Part shown: piece after piece, positions 1 through 10,075 of the stretch | Layout of the letters: each line of letters begins with the position of its first letter | Position numbering within the stretch: position 1 is the first letter of the stretch | Source of the DNA: Ignavibacteriales bacterium | Lineage (GTDB): Bacteria > Bacteroidota > Ignavibacteria > Ignavibacteriales > Ignavibacteriaceae | Reading direction: 5' to 3' | NCBI GenBank assembly: GCA_027349615.1 | Contig: DAIEML010000069.1 | Span: 1-10,075, forward strand | Length of the DNA: 10,075 nt | Notes under the pieces: model-generated | The model's database searches: none | What the model was told of the DNA's origin: nothing | What the model saw: the letters and a program-made list of their open reading frames with translations, nothing else | Program-made: the position numbers and the translations under genes

Positions 1-1785
1 CTCATGAATAAAATTGTTGTGCATGTGCCCTTGAATTTCTTTATCATAGTTATGCTTATACTTTGCATACAATTGACCTAAGTCGATATCGCCAACGCCA
101 AAGATTGGATGATCTTTAAACATTTTTAATCCGGCCTTCCACAATTCAATCCTTACTCGATTTGATGGATTGTAAGAATCAAATATGCTTAACAACCTGC
201 TTTCTTTGGCGAAAGTAAAAATTAGATTGTCGCCGCTTCTTGCTATACTTTCCGGTTGAGAAGTTAATTTATCTTTAAATAAAATTTTAATATGATTTTC
301 TATGGGATATTCCAGTTCATAAAATTCTCCTTTGGAACTTGCCGCAAATAATTTTTTATCAGAAAAATTCCAGGTATATATTTCTGATAAGGAACTATTC
401 TGATCAATTAAATTTAAGCTGTCTTTTTCGATTGAAAATAATTTTAATCCTTGTTTGTCCGCCACTAATATTTTTCCGTCGCCATAAAAGAAACGATCGA
501 TGTTGGATTTATCAGTATAATTAGCAGCTTCTTTTACAGGCAAGCCATTTTGCAATTTTAGAACCGTTAGCGTATTTGGCCTTTGAAGCATTACTAAATA
601 ATTTGAATCAACACCAACTGCAGTATAACCATGGTAGTTATTAAATCTAACCGTATCAGATAAGTTTAGAGGATTTTTGAATATTGTAAGTCCGCTGTCT
701 AAATCAACAGTATAAAAATATTTATTTGCAGCAGCGTAAGAAATGGTGAGACCGGTTGTAAGAAATTCACTCTTTACTTTTAAATCATCGCCTGATTTTT
801 GCAGAAGAAAAAATCTTGTATCAATTGAAGAAGCAACAAAATAATCATCCCATTTAGTTAATGAATAAACCGGCGCGGGCAGCTTTATTTTTTTAATTAA
901 TGAAGTGTCTTTGTAAACCAGAACACCATCAGTAAAATCGCTCAAATAAGTTTTGCCGCTGTCCGCAAGCACGCTATAAGCCATTCCATTGGTTTTCACA
1001 CTTTGTTCTAATTTTAATTTAGAATTATTGAAATTGTAAAACTCTACACGACTGACATTTTTAGAATACAGAAATAAAAAGATTATCGCCGCGCAAATCG
1101 GAATTATAATTTTCCATTGTTTTTTTAATAGAAGAATTACAAATATACCTGCTGCAACGCCAATCCATCCGGTTCTTTTATAGGTTGATAAAAGAGCTAC
1201 AAGAGAAACCAAAAATCCAATTGATAAAAGAATTTTATTTATCAGTTTTGTTCCTTCATTGATGGCAAATGCAAATAAAAACAAAACCGTAAAGCTGGTA
1301 ATTTCACTTGCAGTAATCGGGTATTGAAAAAGAGACGGACCTGATTCTTTTATGCTATATAAATTGTTGATATAATATTTGAACGAAAAGAAAAGATAAA
1401 CTAAAACAGTAATTAAAGAAGCGCCGATATAAATTTTAAAATAAGTTTTAACTCTCTTCTCGTCGAAAGCTACTGCGATTGCAGTATAAACTAGCGGAAT
1501 CAGTAATGCGCGTTTGCTGAGATATAAATATGCCTGCGGATTATTCCCGGAAAAAATTGCAGACAAAAGTTCAGCTAAGAGAAACCAAATAAAAATTAAT
1601 TCTAATCCGGTCTTCTTAAATTGATTTTCTTTTGACAGAAAATATCGAATCAGAATAAGGACAAGGGCTCCGAAGTAACCAATTTGATTCACGAAAATCG
1701 AATTGGTAAGACTCAGCAGAAACAGAGCTGTAAAGAAAATTATTAACCGGTCAATTATTTTTATTTGATTTTGGCTAGCTTCCAT
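1..1785 (-). CDS. O-antigen ligase (WaaL/Wzy_C) family membrane protein with an inserted seven-repeat beta-propeller-like domain; 3' end cut off by the window
   Basis: The frame is open for 595 codons from ATG at 1785 to the window edge, so the C terminus is missing. About nine hydrophobic helices fill residues 14-241, with KRTGWIG at 203-208 matching the conserved arginine region of the ligase family. The Wzy_C signature follows much later: S541-N-R-V-R-I-E-L-W549, then KDHPIFGVGD, then H587-M-H-N-N. Family members transfer or polymerise lipid-linked glycans on the periplasmic face, using conserved Arg and His residues of the large periplasmic loop. Between the two halves, residues about 245-540 form a soluble, beta-rich insert of seven units of about 40 residues. 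Usual family members are about 400-450 residues, whereas this one already exceeds 595. The start overlaps the end of the ABC exporter gene by 11 bases, which suggests translational coupling. The ligase family call is strong. The substrate (O-antigen, other glycan) and the distinction between ligase, Wzy polymerase and PglL-type transferase cannot be read from the sequence. Confidence 0.85.
   Translation of the reverse strand, partial: MEASQNQIKIIDRLIIFFTALFLLSLTNSIFVNQIGYFGALVLILIRYFLSKENQFKKTGLELIFIWFLLAELLSAIFSGNNPQAYLYLSKRALLIPLVYTAIAVAFDEKRVKTYFKIYIGASLITVLVYLFFSFKYYINNLYSIKESGPSLFQYPITASEITSFTVLFLFAFAINEGTKLINKILLSIGFLVSLVALLSTYKRTGWIGVAAGIFVILLLKKQWKIIIPICAAIIFLFLYSKNVSRVEFYNFNNSKLKLEQSVKTNGMAYSVLADSGKTYLSDFTDGVLVYKDTSLIKKIKLPAPVYSLTKWDDYFVASSIDTRFFLLQKSGDDLKVKSEFLTTGLTISYAAANKYFYTVDLDSGLTIFKNPLNLSDTVRFNNYHGYTAVGVDSNYLVMLQRPNTLTVLKLQNGLPVKEAANYTDKSNIDRFFYGDGKILVADKQGLKLFSIEKDSLNLIDQNSSLSEIYTWNFSDKKLFAASSKGEFYELEYPIENHIKILFKDKLTSQPESIARSGDNLIFTFAKESRLLSIFDSYNPSNRVRIELWKAGLKMFKDHPIFGVGDIDLGQLYAKYKHNYDKEIQGHMHNNFIHE
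175..1005 (-). other. Seven-repeat beta-propeller-like insert within the ligase
   Basis: Residues 261-537 of the ligase-family protein split into seven units: about 261-301, 303-341, 343-380, 383-420, 422-461, 464-504 and 507-537. Each has the pattern hydrophobic strand, turn with D/G/N/S, strand of the type K-x-hydrophobic-hydrophobic-V-A/T-D/S, short turn, then a strand with L-x-hydrophobic-F/Y/L followed by a charged tail. Examples are GDGKILVADKQGLKLFSI, SDKKLFAASSKGEFYEL and GDNLIFTFAKESRLLSIF. The segment 245-260 (VEFYNFNNSKLKL) could supply a closing strand. No membrane helix is visible inside, and the insert lies after the ninth predicted helix, on the side where the ligase active site sits. 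The propeller fold is inferred from repeat spacing and strand pattern. No known propeller family signature such as the WD dipeptide is evident. Confidence 0.6.
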
Positions 1786-3691
1786 TATTATCTCTAAATT
1801 GCATTTCGTAAAATTTCCGGTACAGCCCATTTGAATCTTGGATCAGCTCGTCATGCGTTCCGGTCTGAATTATTTTTCCTTTATCCAAAACTATTATTCG
1901 CGAAGCATTTCTGATTGTGCTTAGCCTGTGGGCAATTACAAAAGTTGTTCTGTTCACCATCATTCTTTCGATTGCTTCCTGGACGAGTAATTCTGATTCG
2001 TTATCAAGTGCTGAAGTTGCTTCATCAAAAATCATTATTTCCGGATTCTTTAAAATTGCTCTCGCAATAGAAATTCTTTGCCGCTGCCCGCCGGAAAGTT
2101 TTAGTCCGCGTTCGCCAATTTTTGTTTCATAGCCATCAGGCAATTCAGTAATGAAGCGGTGTGCGTTTGCTGTTTTAGCTGCTTCAATTATTTTTTCAAT
2201 CGGGTAATCTCCAAGTCCATAAGCAATATTATTTTTTATTGATTCATTAAATAGAATAGTTTCTTGCGTTACAATTCCCATCAATGAACGAAGATTTTGG
2301 ATTTTAATTTTTTTAATGTCGTTCCCATCAATTAAAATTTTACCGCTAGTTGGATCGTAAAATCTTGGAATTAAATCCACCAAAGTTGATTTACCTCCGC
2401 CGCTTGGACCGACGAGTGCAATTATCTCCCCCTTGTTTACTGAAAAATTAATGTCATCCAAAACTAGATCATCGCCGTCATCGTAATGAAATAAAATATG
2501 ATCAAAAGAAATTGTGTTATTGAAATAATTAAATTCCTTTGCATCAGTTGCATCAACAATTGCAGGTTTGTTGTCTAAGATTTCAAAAATTCTATCGCCA
2601 GCAGCACTCGATTCTTGAATTCTGTTGTTAACAGTGCTCAATTCTTTTATTGGCGGCATTAACTGAAAAATCGCAAACAAAAATCCCATAAACTCTGCGG
2701 CTTTGAGAGATTGATTCTGCAATACCAAAACGCCGCCATAATAAATTATAACTGCGCCGACAATGACACTTAAAAATTCTGTAATCGGTGAAGATGCATT
2801 TCTAATTCTTACAATCCTAAGCATCATTTTGAAAAAGCTATGAGTTTCACTTGTGAATTTTTTGTTCTCATAATTTTCCATTCCGAATGCTTTTACAATT
2901 TTAACTCCGGAAATAGTTTCCTGGAGAATGCTGGTAATATCAGCCATCTTTGCTTGAATCGCTGAGCTGTGTTTTCTTAGCTTCAATCCAATCCACGCAA
3001 TTATTAGCATAGAGAATGGAAGAATTACAAATGCCAGCAGTGTCAGTTGCCAGCTAATGCTTAACGCAATCCCGATGAAAACTATAATTGTTAAAGGTTC
3101 GCGAATCAAATTTAAAAATGCCGCAGAAATACTATTTTGAACAACATTAACATCGTTGGTAATTCGTGAGATTAAATTTCCAACTCGCTCTTGCTTAAAA
3201 TAGCTCATTGGTAATTGATGAAGATGTTTGTAAGCAGCATCTCGAAGATCTTTCATTGATCCTTGTTCAACGAAGGAAAGAAAATATGCTTGAAGATAGC
3301 CGAAGATATTTTTCAGTAAGAATGCGAATACAACAAGCAGGCAAATCTTAAATAGTGCATTAATCTTATCTCCGGAGAAAACAAAATTATTAAATGAATT
3401 AGTTATTCTTTCCCCAATATTTATAACCCAATTTGGAAGAATGCTTGTTGCATTTTGTACAGTTGAAGTTTGAGAAACTTGAGCCGGCTGCTTTTGACCT
3501 TCCTGAAATAAAGTGTCAAGTAGAGGAATAGTTAGATAAACAGAAGCACCATTTAAAATTGCATATAAAATTGTAAAAATAATTGAGAGGCTTAAATGCT
3601 TCCAATATGGGGTAACAAATTTTAATATTCTTAAATAAGTTTTCACTACGCGCTGTAATCTGGTATTTGTGGAATATTTCTTAAACCGCAT
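1775..3691 (-). CDS. MsbA-like ABC exporter, fused membrane and ATPase domains
   Basis: This is a 638-residue half-transporter that would work as a homodimer in the inner membrane. The N-terminal six-helix exporter domain spans residues about 30-350. The ATPase domain follows: A-loop Y403, Walker A GPSGGGKST (428-436), Q476 of the Q-loop, signature LSGGQ (532-536), Walker B IMIFDE with catalytic E557, and H588 of the switch. All catalytic elements are intact. MsbA and related proteins flip lipid A core or other lipid-linked substrates. The downstream ligase-family gene supports a lipid or glycan substrate, but drug or peptide export cannot be excluded. A loop of about 60 residues (55-113) between the first two helices is longer than in classical MsbA. 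Start choice is uncertain. ATG at 3691 overlaps the lipoprotein gene by 46 bases. A GTG at 3646 overlaps its TAG stop by one base (TAGTG) and would give a protein starting KTYLRILKFVTPYWK, the usual family N terminus. Confidence 0.9.
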   Translation of the reverse strand: MRFKKYSTNTRLQRVVKTYLRILKFVTPYWKHLSLSIIFTILYAILNGASVYLTIPLLDTLFQEGQKQPAQVSQTSTVQNATSILPNWVINIGERITNSFNNFVFSGDKINALFKICLLVVFAFLLKNIFGYLQAYFLSFVEQGSMKDLRDAAYKHLHQLPMSYFKQERVGNLISRITNDVNVVQNSISAAFLNLIREPLTIIVFIGIALSISWQLTLLAFVILPFSMLIIAWIGLKLRKHSSAIQAKMADITSILQETISGVKIVKAFGMENYENKKFTSETHSFFKMMLRIVRIRNASSPITEFLSVIVGAVIIYYGGVLVLQNQSLKAAEFMGFLFAIFQLMPPIKELSTVNNRIQESSAAGDRIFEILDNKPAIVDATDAKEFNYFNNTISFDHILFHYDDGDDLVLDDINFSVNKGEIIALVGPSGGGKSTLVDLIPRFYDPTSGKILIDGNDIKKIKIQNLRSLMGIVTQETILFNESIKNNIAYGLGDYPIEKIIEAAKTANAHRFITELPDGYETKIGERGLKLSGGQRQRISIARAILKNPEIMIFDEATSALDNESELLVQEAIERMMVNRTTFVIAHRLSTIRNASRIIVLDKGKIIQTGTHDELIQDSNGLYRKFYEMQFRDNNGS

Positions 3692-4686
3692 CCGCCTTTA
3701 ATTTTTATAGTTTGGACTGGCTCATGATTTTTGTAATTGAAAATTTGGATTGACGAATTTTTCTCGAAGCCATCATCAAATATCAAAAATACTTTATTTA
3801 TGAAAAAATTTTTAACTCCGCTGCCTATAAAGGTCTTAATAATTTTTTTTTGTTTCAAATCGTACAAAAATATTTTTGAAGTGTTTGGCTGTCTATCATA
3901 CAAAGTTTTATTTCTTGGCGTAATATCAATCGTAGATAAAAATAAATACTTTTCATCAGGAGACCACTCTACCTGGTTTAGCTTTTGGTCTAAGGACACA
4001 ATCAAGGTTTCTTCAGTTTTTGTCCTTAAATAAATTTTAGTAGTAGAGGAATCTCTAGAAATAATTCTAAAAATTTTATTTGGTGAATAATCCTTGATTA
4101 ATTTTTCCGGAGGTTTTGGATAACCATCTTTTGTAATGTCAAAAATTTTAGAATTGTTCACGAGCTCTCTGCCGAACTGGCTAAAAATAAACGTCTGTTG
4201 ATTAACATAAGTTACAACAGTTCTATCAAATGAATTTAATATAACTTTGAAGGTGTTGTCTGTTGTCCAAGTTGTAAAAATCTGAAGCCCACCGCCGATC
4301 TTTTGAACAAATTTAACTTTTGAGGAATCCAAATTAATTAAATATAATTTCACATTTGAAATGAAAGGGAAAACTCCTTTCTTCCCAAAATCGCTAGCAG
4401 TTAAAAAGAAAATATTTTTCCGGTCGGATGAATATGAAAGCTCGACAACTTTCTCTTTTTTATTTGACCAAAATCGTGCAGCAGTTTTTTTCTTAGCATT
4501 AAATTTATAAAGACCTGGATTTTCTCCAATTATACCAACGAAATAAAAATCATTTGGAATTGCTGAAGATTTTATCTCGGCCGCAGTTCCCTTAATATCA
4601 ACAGTGTCACTGTTTGAGTTTTTATTTCCGCATCCGCAAAGTAAAAGGAAAGCTGAAAATAAGATAAATATTCTTAAGCTAAACAT
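3646..4686 (-). CDS. Beta-propeller-like lipoprotein of unknown function
   Basis: The protein is 346 residues from ATG at 4686. The N terminus MFSLRIFILFSAFLLLCGCG is a lipoprotein signal with lipobox LLCGC, so Cys19 should be lipidated. The remainder is beta-rich, with repeated strand-turn-strand units resembling TolB/PD40-type or WD-like propeller blades. Examples are LSYSSDRKNIFFLT, VEWSPDEKYLFLST followed by SKIFLYDLKQKKIIKTF, and SIQIFNYKNHEPVQTIKI. The frame extends upstream to a TTG at 4710, but ATG 4686 gives a normal-length signal peptide and only an 8-base overlap with the protease gene, so I prefer it. The protein lacks catalytic motifs I recognise. Its place directly before an ABC exporter and a ligase carrying its own propeller suggests an envelope role, perhaps as a binding or scaffold partner, but this is inference. 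There is a run of nine A residues on the coding strand (3843-3851); the frame passes through it intact. Confidence 0.75.
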   Translation of the reverse strand: MFSLRIFILFSAFLLLCGCGNKNSNSDTVDIKGTAAEIKSSAIPNDFYFVGIIGENPGLYKFNAKKKTAARFWSNKKEKVVELSYSSDRKNIFFLTASDFGKKGVFPFISNVKLYLINLDSSKVKFVQKIGGGLQIFTTWTTDNTFKVILNSFDRTVVTYVNQQTFIFSQFGRELVNNSKIFDITKDGYPKPPEKLIKDYSPNKIFRIISRDSSTTKIYLRTKTEETLIVSLDQKLNQVEWSPDEKYLFLSTIDITPRNKTLYDRQPNTSKIFLYDLKQKKIIKTFIGSGVKNFFINKVFLIFDDGFEKNSSIQIFNYKNHEPVQTIKIKGGCGLRNIPQIPDYSA

Positions 4687-5338
4687 TAAAAAAGCCCGCG
4701 GTTTTAACAAACAAACTTAATATTAAGTTAATGAATTTCATAAAATATGACCACAACGGACTATAAATGAAAAACATTAAAATTATTGATCCATATAAAC
4801 CGAGGTTCATTAATTTTGCTGTTGCATTATTTGGAAAAAGATCGAAGAGAATATGAGAGCCGTCCAGCGGGGGAATTGGCAAAAGATTAAATGCGAATAG
4901 AAAAATATTTAGAAAAACTCCGTACCAAAAAAAATTCAAAATGTATTGTTTGAATTCAACATTTATGTTTGCAAAGATTAAGAAACATACAAAAAATATT
5001 AATGATAAAATAAAATTTGATAACGGGCCTGCAAAAGAAACAATTGCGTCGTCGCGAAAATGATTTTTGAAATTTCGTCTATCAACCGGAACCGGTTTTG
5101 CCCAGCCGATCAGCGCTATTCCAGTTGAGAATGACGCGAGCGGCATAATATAAGTGCCGATTAAGTCGGCATGTTTAAAAGGATTAAGAGTCAACCTACC
5201 TAAATTTTTTGCGGTGTTGTCTCCAAGCTTAGAAGCTGAAAACGCATGGGCAAATTCGTGAATTGAAAGTGAAACAAAAAAAACCGGAAGAAAAGTTAAA
5301 AATGAAATCAGCTTTTCGCTTATGTGAATGTTAGACAA
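4679..5338 (-). CDS. Compact M50 site-2-type zinc metalloprotease
   Basis: The protein is 219 residues from a TTG start at 5338. It is a membrane-embedded protease of the M50 (S2P-like) family. The zinc motif HEFAH is at residues 27-31 inside the first helix, and the second motif NLLPIPPLDG at 151-160 places D159 as the third metal ligand. Other family landmarks are GWAKPVPVD (78-86) and SFAGPLSN (101-108). There is no PDZ domain, so it belongs to the short PDZ-less subgroup rather than to RseP proper. Substrates are unknown; relatives cleave membrane-spanning regulatory or signal-peptide fragments. The reading frame stays open upstream to 5560, but that stretch lies wholly within xerD in another frame and does not look like a protease N terminus. 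The TTG has a good ribosome site eight bases before it and starts five bases beyond the xerD stop. It overlaps the next gene by 8 bases. Confidence 0.88.
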   Translation of the reverse strand: MSNIHISEKLISFLTFLPVFFVSLSIHEFAHAFSASKLGDNTAKNLGRLTLNPFKHADLIGTYIMPLASFSTGIALIGWAKPVPVDRRNFKNHFRDDAIVSFAGPLSNFILSLIFFVCFLIFANINVEFKQYILNFFWYGVFLNIFLFAFNLLPIPPLDGSHILFDLFPNNATAKLMNLGLYGSIILMFFIYSPLWSYFMKFINLILSLFVKTAGFFNV

Positions 5339-5342
5339 TTTA

Positions 5343-6233
5343 TTATCCTCTCGGGTGAAAATCTTTATGAACTTGTTTAATATATTCGCGATCAATGTGA
5401 GTATAAATTTGTGTTGTGGAAATATCAGAATGCCCAAGCATTTCCTGAACAGCGCGAAGGTCAGCGCCGCCTTCCAGCAAATGTGTTGCGAACGAATGTC
5501 TGAATGTATGCGGGTGAACTTCTTTTTGAATTCCAGCTTCACGAACATAACGATCAACAATTTTCCAGACGCCCATTCGAGAAAGCTTTGTGCCGTGGTT
5601 ATTCAGAAAAAGGAAATTTCCGCTCTTTAATTTTTTTTCGAGCAACGGTCTGCTTTTTATCAAATATTCTTTAATCCATTTTATTGCGCTGCTTCCAATC
5701 GGTACTAATCTTTCTTTTGATCCTTTGCCCAAAACTCTAATGATTTCTTCCTCCAAATAAAGATCCGATATTTTCAAATTTATTAATTCAGAAACTCTAA
5801 CTCCGCATGCATAAAAAGTTTCCAACGCGGCTTTGTCTCTTAATCCTAATTTATTTTCTAAATCAGGTTTTGAAAGAATTGCATCAACTTCACTGACAGA
5901 CAAAACAGACGGCAAATTTTTTGCTAGCTTTGGAAGAGAAACTTTTTCTATCGGATTAGACATTATATACTTATTTGCAAGTAAGTAATTAAAAAAACCT
6001 TTTAATGATGAATAATATCTTGCGGCTGATCTGCTGTTTAATCCGGTATCTTTTAAAGCTTTAAAAAAATTAATAAGATTTTCATACTTGATTTCGGAAG
6101 GATCATTAATATTAAATTCTGCTAAAAATCTGATGAATGAAGATAAATCGTTTTTATATGATGATATTGTATTATCAGAAAGATTTTTTTCAAGCTTTAA
6201 AACAGTTAAGTATTCTTTTAGAAAGATGTTCAT
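5343..6233 (-). CDS. xerD: Site-specific tyrosine recombinase XerD
   Basis: The protein is 296 residues and full length. The N-terminal SAM-like core-binding domain spans about 1-90 and the catalytic domain about 105-290. All six catalytic residues are visible: R146 (CGVRVSEL), K170 (LGKGSKER), H242 and R245 (HPHTFRHSFATH), H268 (LGHSDISTTQ) and the nucleophile Y277 (QIYTHI). The spacing matches E. coli XerD (R148, K172, H244, R247, H270, Y279) with a constant offset of two. Xer recombinases resolve chromosome dimers at dif with FtsK. XerD fits better than XerC because of the ADLRAVQEMLGHSDISTTQIYTHI segment, but a lone XerA/H-type function is possible. No dif site is visible here and no integrase context (att sites, phage genes) is present. 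The ATG overlaps the TGA of the upstream gene (ATGA), a classic coupled junction. Confidence 0.92.
   Translation of the reverse strand: MNIFLKEYLTVLKLEKNLSDNTISSYKNDLSSFIRFLAEFNINDPSEIKYENLINFFKALKDTGLNSRSAARYYSSLKGFFNYLLANKYIMSNPIEKVSLPKLAKNLPSVLSVSEVDAILSKPDLENKLGLRDKAALETFYACGVRVSELINLKISDLYLEEEIIRVLGKGSKERLVPIGSSAIKWIKEYLIKSRPLLEKKLKSGNFLFLNNHGTKLSRMGVWKIVDRYVREAGIQKEVHPHTFRHSFATHLLEGGADLRAVQEMLGHSDISTTQIYTHIDREYIKQVHKDFHPRG
5346..5351 (-). promoter_or_regulatory. Shine-Dalgarno site deciding the TTG start of the M50 protease gene
   Basis: On the coding strand AGAGGA lies at the last codons of xerD, just before its TAA stop. Counting from AGAGG, eight bases separate it from TTG at 5338-5336. 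Most other starts in the window have little or no SD match, so this one stands out and supports the short protease start over the upstream ATGs. Confidence 0.55.
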
Positions 6234-8440
6234 TGTTCATCTTGTTTTTCGTCGATACCTTTTTCCATCTCGTCCTGTTTGGGATATCTAATCCTTCGAT
6301 GATGCTGGCCGACTAAAATACCAACGAAAGCTTCTTTTATTTTATTTAAATCGCTGAATGTTATCGGCGATTCGTTAAGCTGTCCATCATCAACACGATT
6401 TTGAAGAATGCTTTCTATTAAGTTTTCTACTTTTACTGGGTCAGGCTCTTCGATTGATCTAACTGCTGATTCGCAGCCGTCTGCCAACATAATAATTGCA
6501 GTTTCTTTAGAGTTCGGTCTTGGTCCTGGATATTTATATTCTTCAATATCAACCTTTTCTTCGCCGTAAAGTTTTTTAGCTTTTTCATAAAAATATGTCA
6601 TTACCATCGTACCGTGATGCATAGGAATAAAATCAATTATTTCTTGAGGAATATTATTTTCTTCTGCAAGAGAAATTCCTTCCTTAACATGCTTCGCAAT
6701 TAAGCTAACGCTTTCTTCCGGCGTAAGATTTTCATGAATATTCTGATTGTTCAATTGATTTTCAACAAAATTATGCGGCGTTATTGTTTTGCCAATGTCG
6801 TGATAATAAGCTCCGACTCGTGCTAAAAGAGGATTTGCCTTAATGCTTTCAGCTGCAGATTCAGCAAGTGTTCCCATTGTCATTGAATGATTAAAAGTTC
6901 CTGGTGCACGTCTAGCAAGTTCTTTTAGCAATGGTCGATCGAAATTTGAAAGTTCGAGCAGCGTTAAGTCGGTTGTTATCTTAAATAATCTTTCAAAGAA
7001 AATTAATAAACCGTAAGTAAGAACTGGGCTAATCAAAGCGTTCGATCCTGCAAAGGCCGCTTCAATTAAAATATTTTCAACTGAGGCATATCTTTCTAAT
7101 CCGAAGGCAAGAATTGCAACTAAATATCCAATTAGAATGTAAAGAAAAGATCGAAAAATTTGCGAACGATTTTTAATATCGCGAACAGTATAAACAGAAA
7201 GCGCACCGGCAAATAAATTCATTGCAGCAAAAGAATAATCATTTCCTCTTAATGCACCGGTGATAAGTACAATTACTACAGTTGAATAGAATCCGACTCG
7301 CGAATCGAAAATAATCGTAAGCAGCATCGAGACAACGGGAATGAAAATTAAAAATTGAAGCGGTGCGTCGATAGGTATTTGGTCAACTAAAAATGTTATA
7401 AAAGAAATAAATACGAAATTAATTAGGATAAGTAGAATTTTCTGGTTGTCGTTAAAAATTTTTTTTCTAAATAGAAAAAGGTAAATTGTTAGAAGTGTAA
7501 ATAAGAATGCAAGATGAAGAATTTTTCCTAAAAATTGTAAAAAATTTCCTTCACCACCGACTTGTTCGCCTTTTGCTAATTTGTAAGATTCAATTTTTAA
7601 CTTTGCTTCTTTTGTAACTCGATCATGTTTGGCAATTATTCTTTCGTTCTCGTTTACAATTCCGCTGTATTGGGAAACATTATTTTGTGCTTGAGAAATT
7701 TCTTGCTGCGTTAGCCTTGGACTGTAAATTAAATTAGGAAAAATAAAATGTGAGGCATATTCAATTAGCGCTTGTTTTATGTTAGTTTGAAAATTCATAT
7801 TGCTTATTGAATTGCCTACATCGCTTTGGGCGGAAGAAAGATCAAGCATGCTGCTAAGCTTTACGATACGGTCTACATTGCCAGTTCTTATTGCAATGCT
7901 GTCATGGTTAATTTGTGAAGAATCCTGATTTAGAATTCCAAATCCATATATAATATTTATTTCATCTTGCACGACTTCAAATAATCTTGACAGATTTATA
8001 TGTTTTGATATAAGTGCATTTCTTTCATCTTTCTTCAAAATTTTAAAAGTATTAAATGACTCAGTGCTCAAGAAAGTTGGGTTGAAATCTTTTAGAGTAT
8101 CGTTAGATAAAACACTGTCAATAATTTGAAGCAGAAATTTGTTGTAATTTTTAAGAGAATCGCTGGCAATTTTTGATTCGTCATCTTTTCTTGTAAATAC
8201 CGGATAAACTTCAGCAGCCGCAGTTCTTAACTCGGCTTTATAAACATCCGGATCTTTAAGAACAGGAAAACTGAATGGCGCAATTAGATCGTCATGAATC
8301 CAGATTGATCCAATTGAAACTTCTGATTCAATCGATTCGCCTTTTGGAAACATTAATGCAATTAAAATTATTGCTGATAATGCGAACAATAGCTTAATGC
8401 GCAAACTGCTTTTTAATTTTGATTGTTTCTTATCAGGCAT
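6230..8440 (-). CDS. pgpH: 7TM-HD family cyclic-di-AMP phosphodiesterase, PgpH-like
   Basis: The protein is 736 residues. The order is a short basic N terminus, one helix (about 14-30), an extracytoplasmic domain of about 270 residues ending in a charged, possibly coiled stretch (about 245-290), a seven-helix membrane block (about 303-485) and a cytoplasmic HD domain (about 498-712). The ELARRAPGTFNHS and YYHDIGK segments are typical of the YqfF/PgpH family. The metal ligands line up with those of Listeria PgpH: H518, H547-D548, H584, H608-H609 and D654. The protein is therefore expected to be active and to hydrolyse cyclic di-AMP to pApA. The last 15 residues are very acidic and lysine-rich. 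It is first in the operon, after a 188-base gap with a promoter candidate. ATG 8440 gives a normal N terminus but has no clear SD. The family call is firm; substrate specificity is taken from family knowledge. Confidence 0.9.
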   Translation of the reverse strand: MPDKKQSKLKSSLRIKLLFALSAIILIALMFPKGESIESEVSIGSIWIHDDLIAPFSFPVLKDPDVYKAELRTAAAEVYPVFTRKDDESKIASDSLKNYNKFLLQIIDSVLSNDTLKDFNPTFLSTESFNTFKILKKDERNALISKHINLSRLFEVVQDEINIIYGFGILNQDSSQINHDSIAIRTGNVDRIVKLSSMLDLSSAQSDVGNSISNMNFQTNIKQALIEYASHFIFPNLIYSPRLTQQEISQAQNNVSQYSGIVNENERIIAKHDRVTKEAKLKIESYKLAKGEQVGGEGNFLQFLGKILHLAFLFTLLTIYLFLFRKKIFNDNQKILLILINFVFISFITFLVDQIPIDAPLQFLIFIPVVSMLLTIIFDSRVGFYSTVVIVLITGALRGNDYSFAAMNLFAGALSVYTVRDIKNRSQIFRSFLYILIGYLVAILAFGLERYASVENILIEAAFAGSNALISPVLTYGLLIFFERLFKITTDLTLLELSNFDRPLLKELARRAPGTFNHSMTMGTLAESAAESIKANPLLARVGAYYHDIGKTITPHNFVENQLNNQNIHENLTPEESVSLIAKHVKEGISLAEENNIPQEIIDFIPMHHGTMVMTYFYEKAKKLYGEEKVDIEEYKYPGPRPNSKETAIIMLADGCESAVRSIEEPDPVKVENLIESILQNRVDDGQLNESPITFSDLNKIKEAFVGILVGQHHRRIRYPKQDEMEKGIDEKQDEQ

Positions 8441-8628: not shown

Positions 8629-9042
8629 TTATTCGTTTCGGTAATTTTTAGAATAGGGAATTATAATAAAGTCATGAATCCCGACATCTGAAATTGAAAG
8701 ACCGTTTTTAAATGGAACGAAAAACAACCCTTGAGAGCTGCCGGTTTTTGTTTCATGAGGTTTTAAATTTCCTTTTAAATTTATTATATGTTTAAGTGTA
8801 TCAGATAAAAAAATCAAATCAAATTTATAATTCACTTCAAAATTATTCTTGTTAACAAGCTTTACAACCACGCCATCATTTAAATTATCTGCTTTTGTAT
8901 ACCATATAAAGTAGGCGATAACACTGTCTTTTTGGTATAAAAAAGTCCATGCACCGTGTTCAGGCATTAGTTCTTGGGCAAAGCCTTTGAAATTTAATAG
9001 AGAAGTCAGGACAAAAATAATTTTTATCCACCGGCTAAACAT
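8629..9042 (-). CDS. Small secreted protein of unknown function
   Basis: The protein is 137 residues and I do not recognise a named family. The N terminus has a basic start, a hydrophobic core (IKIIFVLTSLLNF) and a likely signal peptidase site after GFA, near residue 22, so it is probably periplasmic or exported. The mature part is beta-rich: VVVKLVNKNNFEVNYKFDLI, then NLKPHETKTGSSQGLFFVPF, then IHDFIIIPY. The pattern of strands with N-x-N turns and a late polar turn resembles small Ig-like sandwich domains, but this is only an impression. It has one free-standing start (ATG 9042), 26 bases after the GH2 stop, so it is probably co-transcribed with the glycosidase. It has no cysteine, lipobox or membrane anchor beyond the signal. 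Confidence 0.65.
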   Translation of the reverse strand: MFSRWIKIIFVLTSLLNFKGFAQELMPEHGAWTFLYQKDSVIAYFIWYTKADNLNDGVVVKLVNKNNFEVNYKFDLIFLSDTLKHIINLKGNLKPHETKTGSSQGLFFVPFKNGLSISDVGIHDFIIIPYSKNYRNE

Positions 9043-9068: not shown

Positions 9069-10075
9069 TTATTCTACATTCCAACCAGAAATTTTTACTG
9101 AAGGATTTTTGTTTTCTAAATCTTTCTTATAAACATAACCGTGAATAGTTCGACTTTCTCCGGGAAGTAATGAGAAATAATTATCTTCCAGAAAAACCGG
9201 CAGAACTGGATTGTCTTCTTTCCCTTTGTTAATCATAACTTCAATTTGAAATGCTAATTTGCTCGAGGGATTTTTCAAGTTAATAGTGAAAAATTCTTTC
9301 TCGCCTTTGGACTCAAATTTGTTTTTAACATCTAATTTTACTTTTGGAAGATTATTCAGCTCAGTTAAATCAGCATACGTTTTTTCAGGTGTTACAAAAC
9401 CATTTGTCTTAGCAGTATCAAGTTCATCTTTTGCAGTTGATAAACAATAGAAGTTATCACTGATCATTTTATTTTCTTCAAACAATTTCAAATCAACAAA
9501 ATACGTTTTGCTTAAGTTGGAAAAATCCGGAAGCTGCAATATTTGTTTAGAAATATTTGATGATAAATCTACCGAGATATTTTTTGAAAACTTTTTTAAA
9601 AGGTCAAAATTCAAAACTTCAATTTTTGCTTTTAAGTTTTTATAATCTTTTAAAGTATTGTTGATTACATCGATACCTTTTGTTTCATAATTATATTGAA
9701 TGTGAACAGGCTCGCCAGCTTTTCTTGCGCCGTAAAACGCACCTGTCGGCATTAAATAAAAATCATAAAGCTGCCACCAAAGTTTTGGCCAAGCAGAATT
9801 GTACATCCATTGAATAACTCCGGTAGATTTAAATTTGTTGGCATCAAAAGCTTCATACATTGCCCGCATTGCTTCGTAATTTGTATACTGTGCTTTGCGT
9901 TCATAATCGTCCAAACTTGCTGGTGCACCAAGCCGTTTATCAATTGCTTCATTATATGTTGTAAGATTTTCAAATCTAAATCTGCTGCAATGATAAACAA
10001 TTTGAAAAATGAAATTGAGGCTGGGATTGATCTTTCCAAACTTCATATGCCGGTCGGTTTGAAGATTGGCGAGAT
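9069..10075 (-). CDS. C-terminal part of a GH2 glycosidase, exo-beta-D-glucosaminidase/beta-mannosidase type (5' end outside window)
   Basis: The frame remains open to the right edge, so only the last 335 or so codons are present. The ATG at 10046 is probably internal. The end of the catalytic barrel is recognisable: NLTTYNEAIDKRLGAP, SLDDYERKAQYTNYEAMR, then GVIQWMYNSAWPKLWWQLYD at about 9756-9815, close to the CsxA-type exo-glucosaminidase pattern. Beta-sandwich domains follow, with the family C-terminal landmarks NFYCLS, YADLTELNNLP, LPVFLEDNYFSLLPGESRTI and a final ISGWNVE. Such enzymes remove terminal glucosamine or mannose from chitosan-like or mannan-type glycans, and are usually secreted. 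The acid/base and nucleophile glutamates lie outside the window, so specificity cannot be decided. The first 30 or so visible residues fit the family poorly. This may be divergence, or a frame problem near 10000-10040. Confidence 0.85.
   Translation of the reverse strand, partial: LANLQTDRHMKFGKINPSLNFIFQIVYHCSRFRFENLTTYNEAIDKRLGAPASLDDYERKAQYTNYEAMRAMYEAFDANKFKSTGVIQWMYNSAWPKLWWQLYDFYLMPTGAFYGARKAGEPVHIQYNYETKGIDVINNTLKDYKNLKAKIEVLNFDLLKKFSKNISVDLSSNISKQILQLPDFSNLSKTYFVDLKLFEENKMISDNFYCLSTAKDELDTAKTNGFVTPEKTYADLTELNNLPKVKLDVKNKFESKGEKEFFTINLKNPSSKLAFQIEVMINKGKEDNPVLPVFLEDNYFSLLPGESRTIHGYVYKKDLENKNPSVKISGWNVE

Follow-up and report, generated by a model that had tools for sequence, protein, structure and literature searches.

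In O-antigen ligases and Wzy polymerases, several small and variable loops share the task of recognising the substrate, which makes these enzymes difficult to study. The solved ligase WaaL (CAZy GT121; PDB 7tpg/7tpj) has 12 membrane helices, and in 7tpg R191 and R265 bind undecaprenyl diphosphate (Und-PP) and H313 activates the acceptor, according to the available sections of PMC10920833; the same sections describe WadA-type bimodular ligases, in which a globular GT25 glycosyltransferase is appended to the GT121 enzyme. Wzy-beta of Pseudomonas aeruginosa has a Wzy_C loop with essential Arg and His, a loop-3 RX10G arginine and 10 membrane segments, and the available part of its description mentions no propeller (PMC4815439). 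Protein O-mannosyltransferases are multi-spanning enzymes with a non-cytoplasmic beta-domain (MIR) carrying sugar-binding sites, as partly documented in PMC7759382. PorZ of Porphyromonas gingivalis is a Bacteroidota envelope propeller protein that binds the A-LPS form of lipopolysaccharide (LPS); in the available account it is a separate cell-surface protein of type IX secretion with no enzyme part (PMC8545088). Here we analysed a stretch of 10,075 nucleotides from an Ignavibacteriales bacterium (contig DAIEML010000069.1 of assembly GCA_027349615.1), called the window below. It carries the gene of a WaaL-like membrane enzyme, in which a predicted seven-bladed beta-propeller is inserted in the catalytic loop. 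The enzyme family is known, and no description of a propeller within a Wzy_C or WaaL enzyme was found in the open literature, most subscription journals lying outside the coverage of that search.

The gene lies on the minus strand from position 1785 to 1 as one open frame without a stop, and is cut at the window end. It encodes 595 of about 687 residues, the length being judged from full-length relatives. The N-terminal membrane half (residues 1–243; 1057..1785) has nine membrane helices predicted from AlphaFold2 secondary structure, and K203-R204 of the KRTGW motif (codons 1174–1179) stands at the start of helix 8. The propeller follows at residues 244–528 (202..1056), and the start of the C-terminal ligase half (residues 529–595; 1..201) contains R530, R545-x3-W549 of the RxxxW motif, DHPIFGVGD and H587/H589 of HMHNN. 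The AlphaFold2 model was made on P0002, a full-length relative that is 87% identical to the window protein; the two agree at 24 of 25 positions compared and differ at 244, where the window protein has V for I. In this model (predicted local distance difference test, pLDDT, 88; predicted template modelling score, pTM, 0.80), nine membrane helices are followed by strands over 244–527, a helix at 540–558 and three more membrane helices, giving 12 predicted membrane helices as counted by eye, nine before the catalytic loop and three after it. The predicted loops contain K and R at 0.24 on the inside versus 0.06 on the outside. The 28 strands make up seven four-stranded blades of a closed propeller, whose seventh blade is composed of 513–527 plus 244–264, and the model matched solved propellers in both Foldseek and VIA. 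No WaaL chain was among the Foldseek and VIA rows listed for the full model; the propeller filled both lists and the membrane part was barely probed, so this is no evidence against a WaaL (GT-C_B) fold. No Pfam propeller profile (WD40 and other named repeat families) scored above its cut-off in the window protein or in six relatives. The sequence-only reading had described one frame with nine N-terminal helices, a soluble region of seven units taken for a seven-bladed propeller, and Wzy_C motifs, and both the open frame and the model agree with it. It had also placed the insert between helix 9 and the catalytic motif, which held, but its boundaries of 245–540, given without a strand, had to be moved to 244–528. 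Since the insert ends at 528, R530, with which the conserved Arg residues of the catalytic loop begin, stands just after the last blade.

The enzyme part was assigned from profile comparisons. Against Pfam Wzy_C (PF04932), the window protein scored 63.9 bits (cut-off 31.7) in two stretches, the better of which was 522–594, and six full-length relatives scored 66–83 bits. The insert breaks the Wzy_C match in two in each of the 20 insert-bearing genomes tested, the N-terminal piece ending at profile positions 53–85 and the C-terminal piece starting at 56–80. Other Wzy_C proteins of these genomes span the profile from 1–5 to 146–149, apart from one partial match. A ligase profile on both flanks, as anticipated from the sequence, was thus recovered, though with a weak N-terminal piece, and the joined halves match ordinary ligases. 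Solved WaaL 7tpg aligned over positions 542–659 of our profile with E 4.3e-6, and by counting in this alignment R545 falls on R265 and H589 on H313. WaaL is alike in its Wzy_C-type C half and in its number of helices, but it has 413 residues versus about 687 here, where a 285-residue propeller separates the first Arg region from the second Arg. An Arg stands opposite R204 in 19 of 19 uninserted rows (C 7, A3 10 and X 2; C and A3 are described below); R204 was not aligned to 7tpg itself. Conservation was read from alignment A1, which holds 109 of the 121 proteins then in hand; the 12 omitted by hand were placed among 86 further rows, which may partly duplicate A1 rows. R204, R545 and H589 were each present in 109 of 109 A1 rows, and in 81, 85 and 86 of the 86 further rows, respectively. 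An identity as IctB was dropped, because the window protein missed the equivalog cut-off of TIGR00947 (31.7 bits versus 366.4).

The insert is widespread among relatives. A search of 5.8 billion proteins with the window protein gave 414 relatives at E <= 0.001. The best 120 of the 414 were 592–705 amino acids long with query coverage of 95–100%, and where organisms were given they were Bacteroidetes, Ignavibacteriota, Ignavibacteriales, Ignavibacteriaceae and Ignavibacterium, with one Bacillota metagenome-assembled genome; some relatives carry the annotation "O-antigen ligase family protein". A protein search with the joined membrane halves gave 575 matches, the best 120 of which were all 667–705 amino acids long, that is, of insert-bearing size. 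Among genomes, a contig scan with the single sequence found two close genomes, and the other genome results came from profile searches. The ligase was found in 42 of 294 genomes of a class sample, with one match each when up to 3 candidates were scored per genome. It was found in 40 of 80 genomes of a family sample, again with one match each except G315, which has two contig-end pieces; several family copies are truncated by contig ends. A phylum-wide sample of 395 genomes (up to 2 candidates scored per genome) gave 33 matches at E <= 1e-40, namely 25 with the insert and 8 that matched by the C half only. A propeller-ligase copy with internal stops was seen at G326:C1:3539443-3541496, which may reflect decay, a strain mixture or an assembly fault.

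Because the matches of the best 120 of 414 relatives run through the insert, the architecture is not an assembly error, and relatives with the full insert indicate that it is real and common in its clade. A survey of homologues had been called for from the sequence, and the insert proved to be present across the clade. The idea that two genes were merged by an assembly error or frameshift, to which the cutting of the window gene at the window end could lend some colour, was rejected and can be virtually dismissed, since many separate genomes show this architecture in a single frame. The structure prediction, the profile comparison of the flanks and the homologue survey all agreed with the sequence-only reading, whose interpretation was supported overall. 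No stand-alone relative of the insert appeared in an insert-only protein search: just 2 of 809 candidates matched, both short PF04932 proteins, and these are fragments of the propeller-ligase family.

The eight phylum-sample proteins with a C-half match only (the C set, L105–L112) have frames of 389–506 amino acids, and the joined membrane halves matched all eight nearly end to end, seven with E values of 2e-60 to 5e-68 and the eighth (L107) with 7.5e-71, an overall range of 2e-60 to 8e-71 in small test sets. In an alignment with seven of them, the insert site is bounded by N243, which ends helix 9, and by S529/R530; here the C-set proteins have a short linker (as in FLFAPPSQIERAKSIV) and then rejoin at the same Arg. 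IQ-TREE analysis of the membrane parts placed 16 insert-bearing rows in one clade (100/99), joined to seven uninserted rows (94/81). Of the two distant uninserted rows, X_L085 was not included, and X_L086 lies on a very long branch; the root is insecure; L107 was in neither alignment nor tree and was read separately. As the insert-bearing rows form one clade, a single gain is the simplest history, in which the propeller probably came in one time only, at a site bounded by helix 9 and Arg530. The existence of uninserted relatives, several at the same gene position, is the strongest new evidence and bears out the earlier claim of a domain insertion rather than an end-to-end fusion. The C set resembles the window enzyme in matching end to end, in its sister-clade position and in partly shared flanks, and it differs by lacking the propeller, with a linker such as FAPPSQIE between helix 9 and the Arg, and by keeping a loop-3 Arg.

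The flanking genes were compared in the same way. In the window, genes for a 7TM-HD protein, an XerC/D-type recombinase, an M50 peptidase, PROP2 (a putative lipoprotein), an MsbA-like ATP-binding cassette transporter of the lipid A exporter family (1775..3691, minus strand, overlapping the ligase start) and the ligase follow one another on one strand. Context was examined at 22 insert-bearing loci with a simple frame caller, which may miss or invent small genes. The MsbA-like gene was co-oriented and directly upstream of the ligase at 17 of the 22, and a family-2 glycosyltransferase was directly downstream at eight, with NAD kinase directly after it at six. In the C set the transporter was directly upstream at 4 of 8 loci and one frame away at 2 more; the glycosyltransferase was directly downstream at 7 of 8 (L107 was not scored), with NAD kinase beyond it in those 7, one or two frames being called between. 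The inserted and uninserted forms thus have the same flanks at a fair share of the loci, with exceptions.

Genomes without the gene gave a second comparison. We searched 24 of the 40 such family genomes for the MsbA-like gene; 22 matched, and 18 loci (L087–L104) were taken. At 12 of these 18 sister loci a distant uninserted ligase (A3) stands after the MsbA-like gene. All 10 complete sister-locus ligases matched Wzy_C, and two cut ones, L090 (unknown bases) and L098 (contig end), were judged by eye. The A3 ligases could be aligned with the joined halves (hhalign 98.3%, E 2.4e-14, 343 columns), but their mean identity was 18% versus 29% for the C set. They were rejected as the empty site of the same gene for being too distant, and at their position after the MsbA orthologue another ligase is taken to have replaced it. 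For an empty site, the C set offers the better comparison, given its higher identity, its sister-clade position and its partly shared flanks. The place after the MsbA-like gene at L087–L104 behaved as a swap site, with a heptosyltransferase-family gene in L102 and other genes in the remaining loci. It can thus be viewed as a ligase slot for which three or more kinds of occupant are known.

The neighbours also bear on the reaction. Each of the 20 insert-bearing genomes tested has LpxC, so these genomes should make lipid A, and LpxC together with the MsbA-like neighbour is circumstantial evidence for the transfer of O-antigen from Und-PP to lipid A-core. At L102, in a genome without the insert, a heptosyltransferase-family gene follows the MsbA-like gene (45% identical), which points to LPS. 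We infer that the enzyme acts as a ligase rather than as a polymerase. The enzyme could instead be a Wzy-type polymerase or chain-length sensor, whose propeller would hold the growing chain and set its length while another protein serves as the ligase. This seems unlikely. Polymerases are typically variable and located in sugar clusters, while the propeller enzyme was found as one match per genome, mostly in the MsbA-linked position. However, additional Wzy_C proteins, possible ligases, are present in 18 of 20 scanned insert-bearing genomes, and some loci adjoin sugar-transferase genes (L036, L037); at L037, as would suit a polymerase, the ligase has a glycosyltransferase and a sugar-phosphate transferase as neighbours. 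The propeller ligase is the single Wzy_C protein of G137 and G271, polymerases outside Wzy_C not having been searched for. Wzy_C is also found in polymerases such as Wzy-beta, which has the essential Arg and His in its Wzy_C loop (PMC4815439, available part), but the propeller enzyme lacks the RX10G arginine that Pseudomonas Wzy proteins have in loop 3.

We also considered a PglL-like protein O-oligosaccharyltransferase, in which the propeller would recognise a protein acceptor, as MIR domains do in protein O-mannosyltransferases. PglL belongs to a protein family that includes the WaaL ligases (PMC3643930, in its available part), and the luminal beta-domain of the protein O-mannosyltransferases, with its mannose-binding sites, affects processivity (PMC7759382, likewise). 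Nevertheless, neither PglL_A nor Wzy_C_2 was among the Pfam matches at E <= 1 for the window protein or at E <= 10 for six relatives, and the neighbours (the MsbA-like gene, the family-2 glycosyltransferase at 8 of 22 loci and the heptosyltransferase-family gene of L102) point to lipid A and LPS core. The PglL reading of the enzyme was dropped on the profile result, and the proposal as a whole is very unlikely.

The propeller itself gave information on how it may serve the ligase. The stretch 245–532 is 285–298 residues long in 109 of 109 aligned rows, and its mean pairwise identity in these rows is 35% versus 57% for the N half and 63% for the C half, which indicates that the propeller stretch evolves faster than the membrane parts. 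By convention, the B-C and D-A loops of a propeller share one face. This face was more conserved than the opposite one (2.33 versus 1.68 bits; p 0.016 by loop shuffling). Five residues in the B-C loops of blades 1–3, D283 (937–939), R324 (814–816), D361, D363 and S364, are invariant in the 109 rows and occur in 81, 83, 79, 80 and 78 of the 86 further rows, respectively, so that R324 is nearly invariant (192 of 195 rows). The conserved face residues in the window also include D322 (820–822), G345 and G365, the last belonging to D361-x-D363-S364-G365 (691–705; all on the minus strand). The chain enters the propeller at the start of strand C of blade 7 and leaves it at the end of strand B of the same blade. 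Because entry and exit are both on the B-C/D-A loop side, that face should point to the membrane enzyme.

From these features we propose the following mechanism. A seven-bladed propeller would have been inserted once, in the common ancestor of an Ignavibacteria-like clade, between membrane helix 9 and R530 in the catalytic periplasmic loop of a WaaL-type O-antigen ligase (glycosyltransferase fold GT-C, Wzy_C superfamily). By the alignment, Arg204 and Arg545 would hold the diphosphate of the Und-PP-linked glycan and His589 would activate the acceptor, as in WaaL. The B-C/D-A side of the propeller would face the membrane with a polar patch of D283, D322, R324, D361 and D363 (blades 1–3) over the active site, and this patch would bind either the glycan donor or the lipid A-core acceptor, the latter being delivered by the adjoining MsbA-like exporter. 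A WaaL-type ligase whose propeller turns its conserved face to the active site and helps to recognise the glycan or the acceptor has, in our judgement, about an even chance of being the correct description, and substrate recognition is ranked first among the proposed roles of the propeller. Sequence and prediction establish the fold, the split domain, the close relatives without an insert, the single clade, the gene neighbours and the absence of the loop-3 Arg, whereas ligase activity, the orientation of the propeller and substrate binding are inferences. The nearest precedent for such a binding role is PorZ, although it has no enzyme part and its Pfam resemblance was at chance level and seen in one relative only (P0053, E 0.33). 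WadA-type ligases likewise combine an O-antigen ligase with an extra domain, but theirs is appended and not inserted. In protein O-mannosyltransferases the MIR domain is inserted in a loop. These belong to another glycosyltransferase family, with a beta-trefoil instead of a propeller, and act in the eukaryotic endoplasmic reticulum; their MIR domain is nevertheless the best functional analogy, and a propeller built into the catalytic loop would count as its bacterial counterpart. Related enzymes that have or lack this rigid, recognition-type domain are available, several of them encoded at the same gene position, so that acceptor or chain selection in a GT-C ligase becomes testable, and the propeller may perhaps be a handle for glycan engineering in laboratory strains.

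Propellers commonly serve as scaffolds, and the insert may instead recruit an envelope partner (the MsbA-like exporter, PROP2 or the LPS transport machinery), thus coupling ligation to export without touching the substrate. The MsbA-like gene directly upstream at 17 of 22 loci, PROP2-like proteins at 14 of 22 and the presence of BamB, an envelope assembly propeller, in the Foldseek list are in favour of such docking. On the other hand, the best-conserved residues are found on the face to which the membrane enzyme is joined, the insert is kept where neither MsbA-like gene nor PROP2 was seen adjoining (L037, L038, L040, L051), and PROP2 was undetected in the MsbA-keeping loci L043, L047, L048 and L052. 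We consider docking plausible but doubtful.

A further difference from the uninserted enzymes lies in the loop between helices 5 and 6. At position 149 (codon 1339–1341, minus strand, G149 in the window), 108 of 109 A1 rows and 83 of the 86 further rows have Gly, and none of the 195 insert-bearing rows has Arg; L049 is possibly misaligned at this position. The close uninserted relatives have Arg here: it was found in 7 of 7 C-set rows, in 10 of 10 A3 rows, in L107 by eye and in one of the two distant X rows, and the seven C rows have an R-x10-G motif at this position. The RX10G loop-3 motif of Pseudomonas Wzy proteins was proposed to recruit substrate (PMC4815439, available part). The simplest functional reading suggests that some of the recruitment of substrate passed to the propeller, which rests on one branch of the tree; in the proposed mechanism, the propeller patch would do the work of the loop-3 arginine that the insert-bearing clade is without. 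In the strongest form of this idea, the propeller rewired the active site, the loop-3 Arg at 149 being lost at insertion and its role passing to R324, so that the inserted domain became part of the catalytic site. We regard this form as decidedly improbable; if true, the propeller would contribute directly to donor or acceptor binding and would set specificity or chain register. The uninserted ligase of L107 (L107:7384-8901) keeps the loop-3 Arg, yet by eye has S-E at the following positions as in the insert-bearing enzymes, and it is a possible intermediate state.

Besides the additional Wzy_C proteins and the setting of L037, several observations weigh against a substrate-recognising propeller on a WaaL-type ligase. 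The N-terminal Wzy_C piece by itself was under the cut-off in 15 of 20 genomes. The best NCBIfam model of the transporter, MsbA TIGR02203, scored 550 bits, under its cut-off of 602, and 5 of the 22 insert-bearing loci have no adjoining co-oriented MsbA-like gene. Neither the catalytic site nor the patch is absolute, as R204 and D283 were each missing from 5, and D361 from 7, of the 86 further rows. Without the junction blade 7, the difference between the two faces was 0.47 bits with p 0.07, and the presumed facing of the propeller is read from strand order and a pTM of 0.80. As for position 149, the distant uninserted row X_L086 also has Gly, and Wzy-beta tolerates single Ala changes of two loop-3 arginines, the double change disrupting function (PMC4815439, available part). 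Moreover, the insertion and the Arg loss each happened once, on the same branch, and need not be linked.

The remaining genes of the window were read in the same way, all on the minus strand. PROP2 (3649..4710), two genes upstream of the ligase, has no Pfam family above cut-off. Its AlphaFold2 model is shallow and of low confidence (pLDDT 66), and the predicted propeller-like fold, with Foldseek matches to TolB, WDR5 and others, is a hint at most. It evolves fast, and relatives were found at 14 of 22 insert-bearing loci. The derivation of the ligase insert from PROP2 was not supported (hhalign probability 3.6%, E 0.0038, 37 columns; best BLAST E 2.0) and was rejected. The PgpH-like 7TM-HD protein and then the XerC/D-type recombinase are encoded within 5343-8440, and both lie upstream of the MsbA-like gene in 15 of the 22 insert-bearing loci. 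The C-terminal Ig-like domains of a glycosidase of the exo-beta-D-glucosaminidase/mannosidase type lie at 9069-10046, the gene being cut by the window end, and the corresponding frame has 872-874 amino acids in L001 and L002. A 137-residue protein with an N-terminal signal-like stretch and no family above cut-off (8629-9042) is conserved in L001 and L002.

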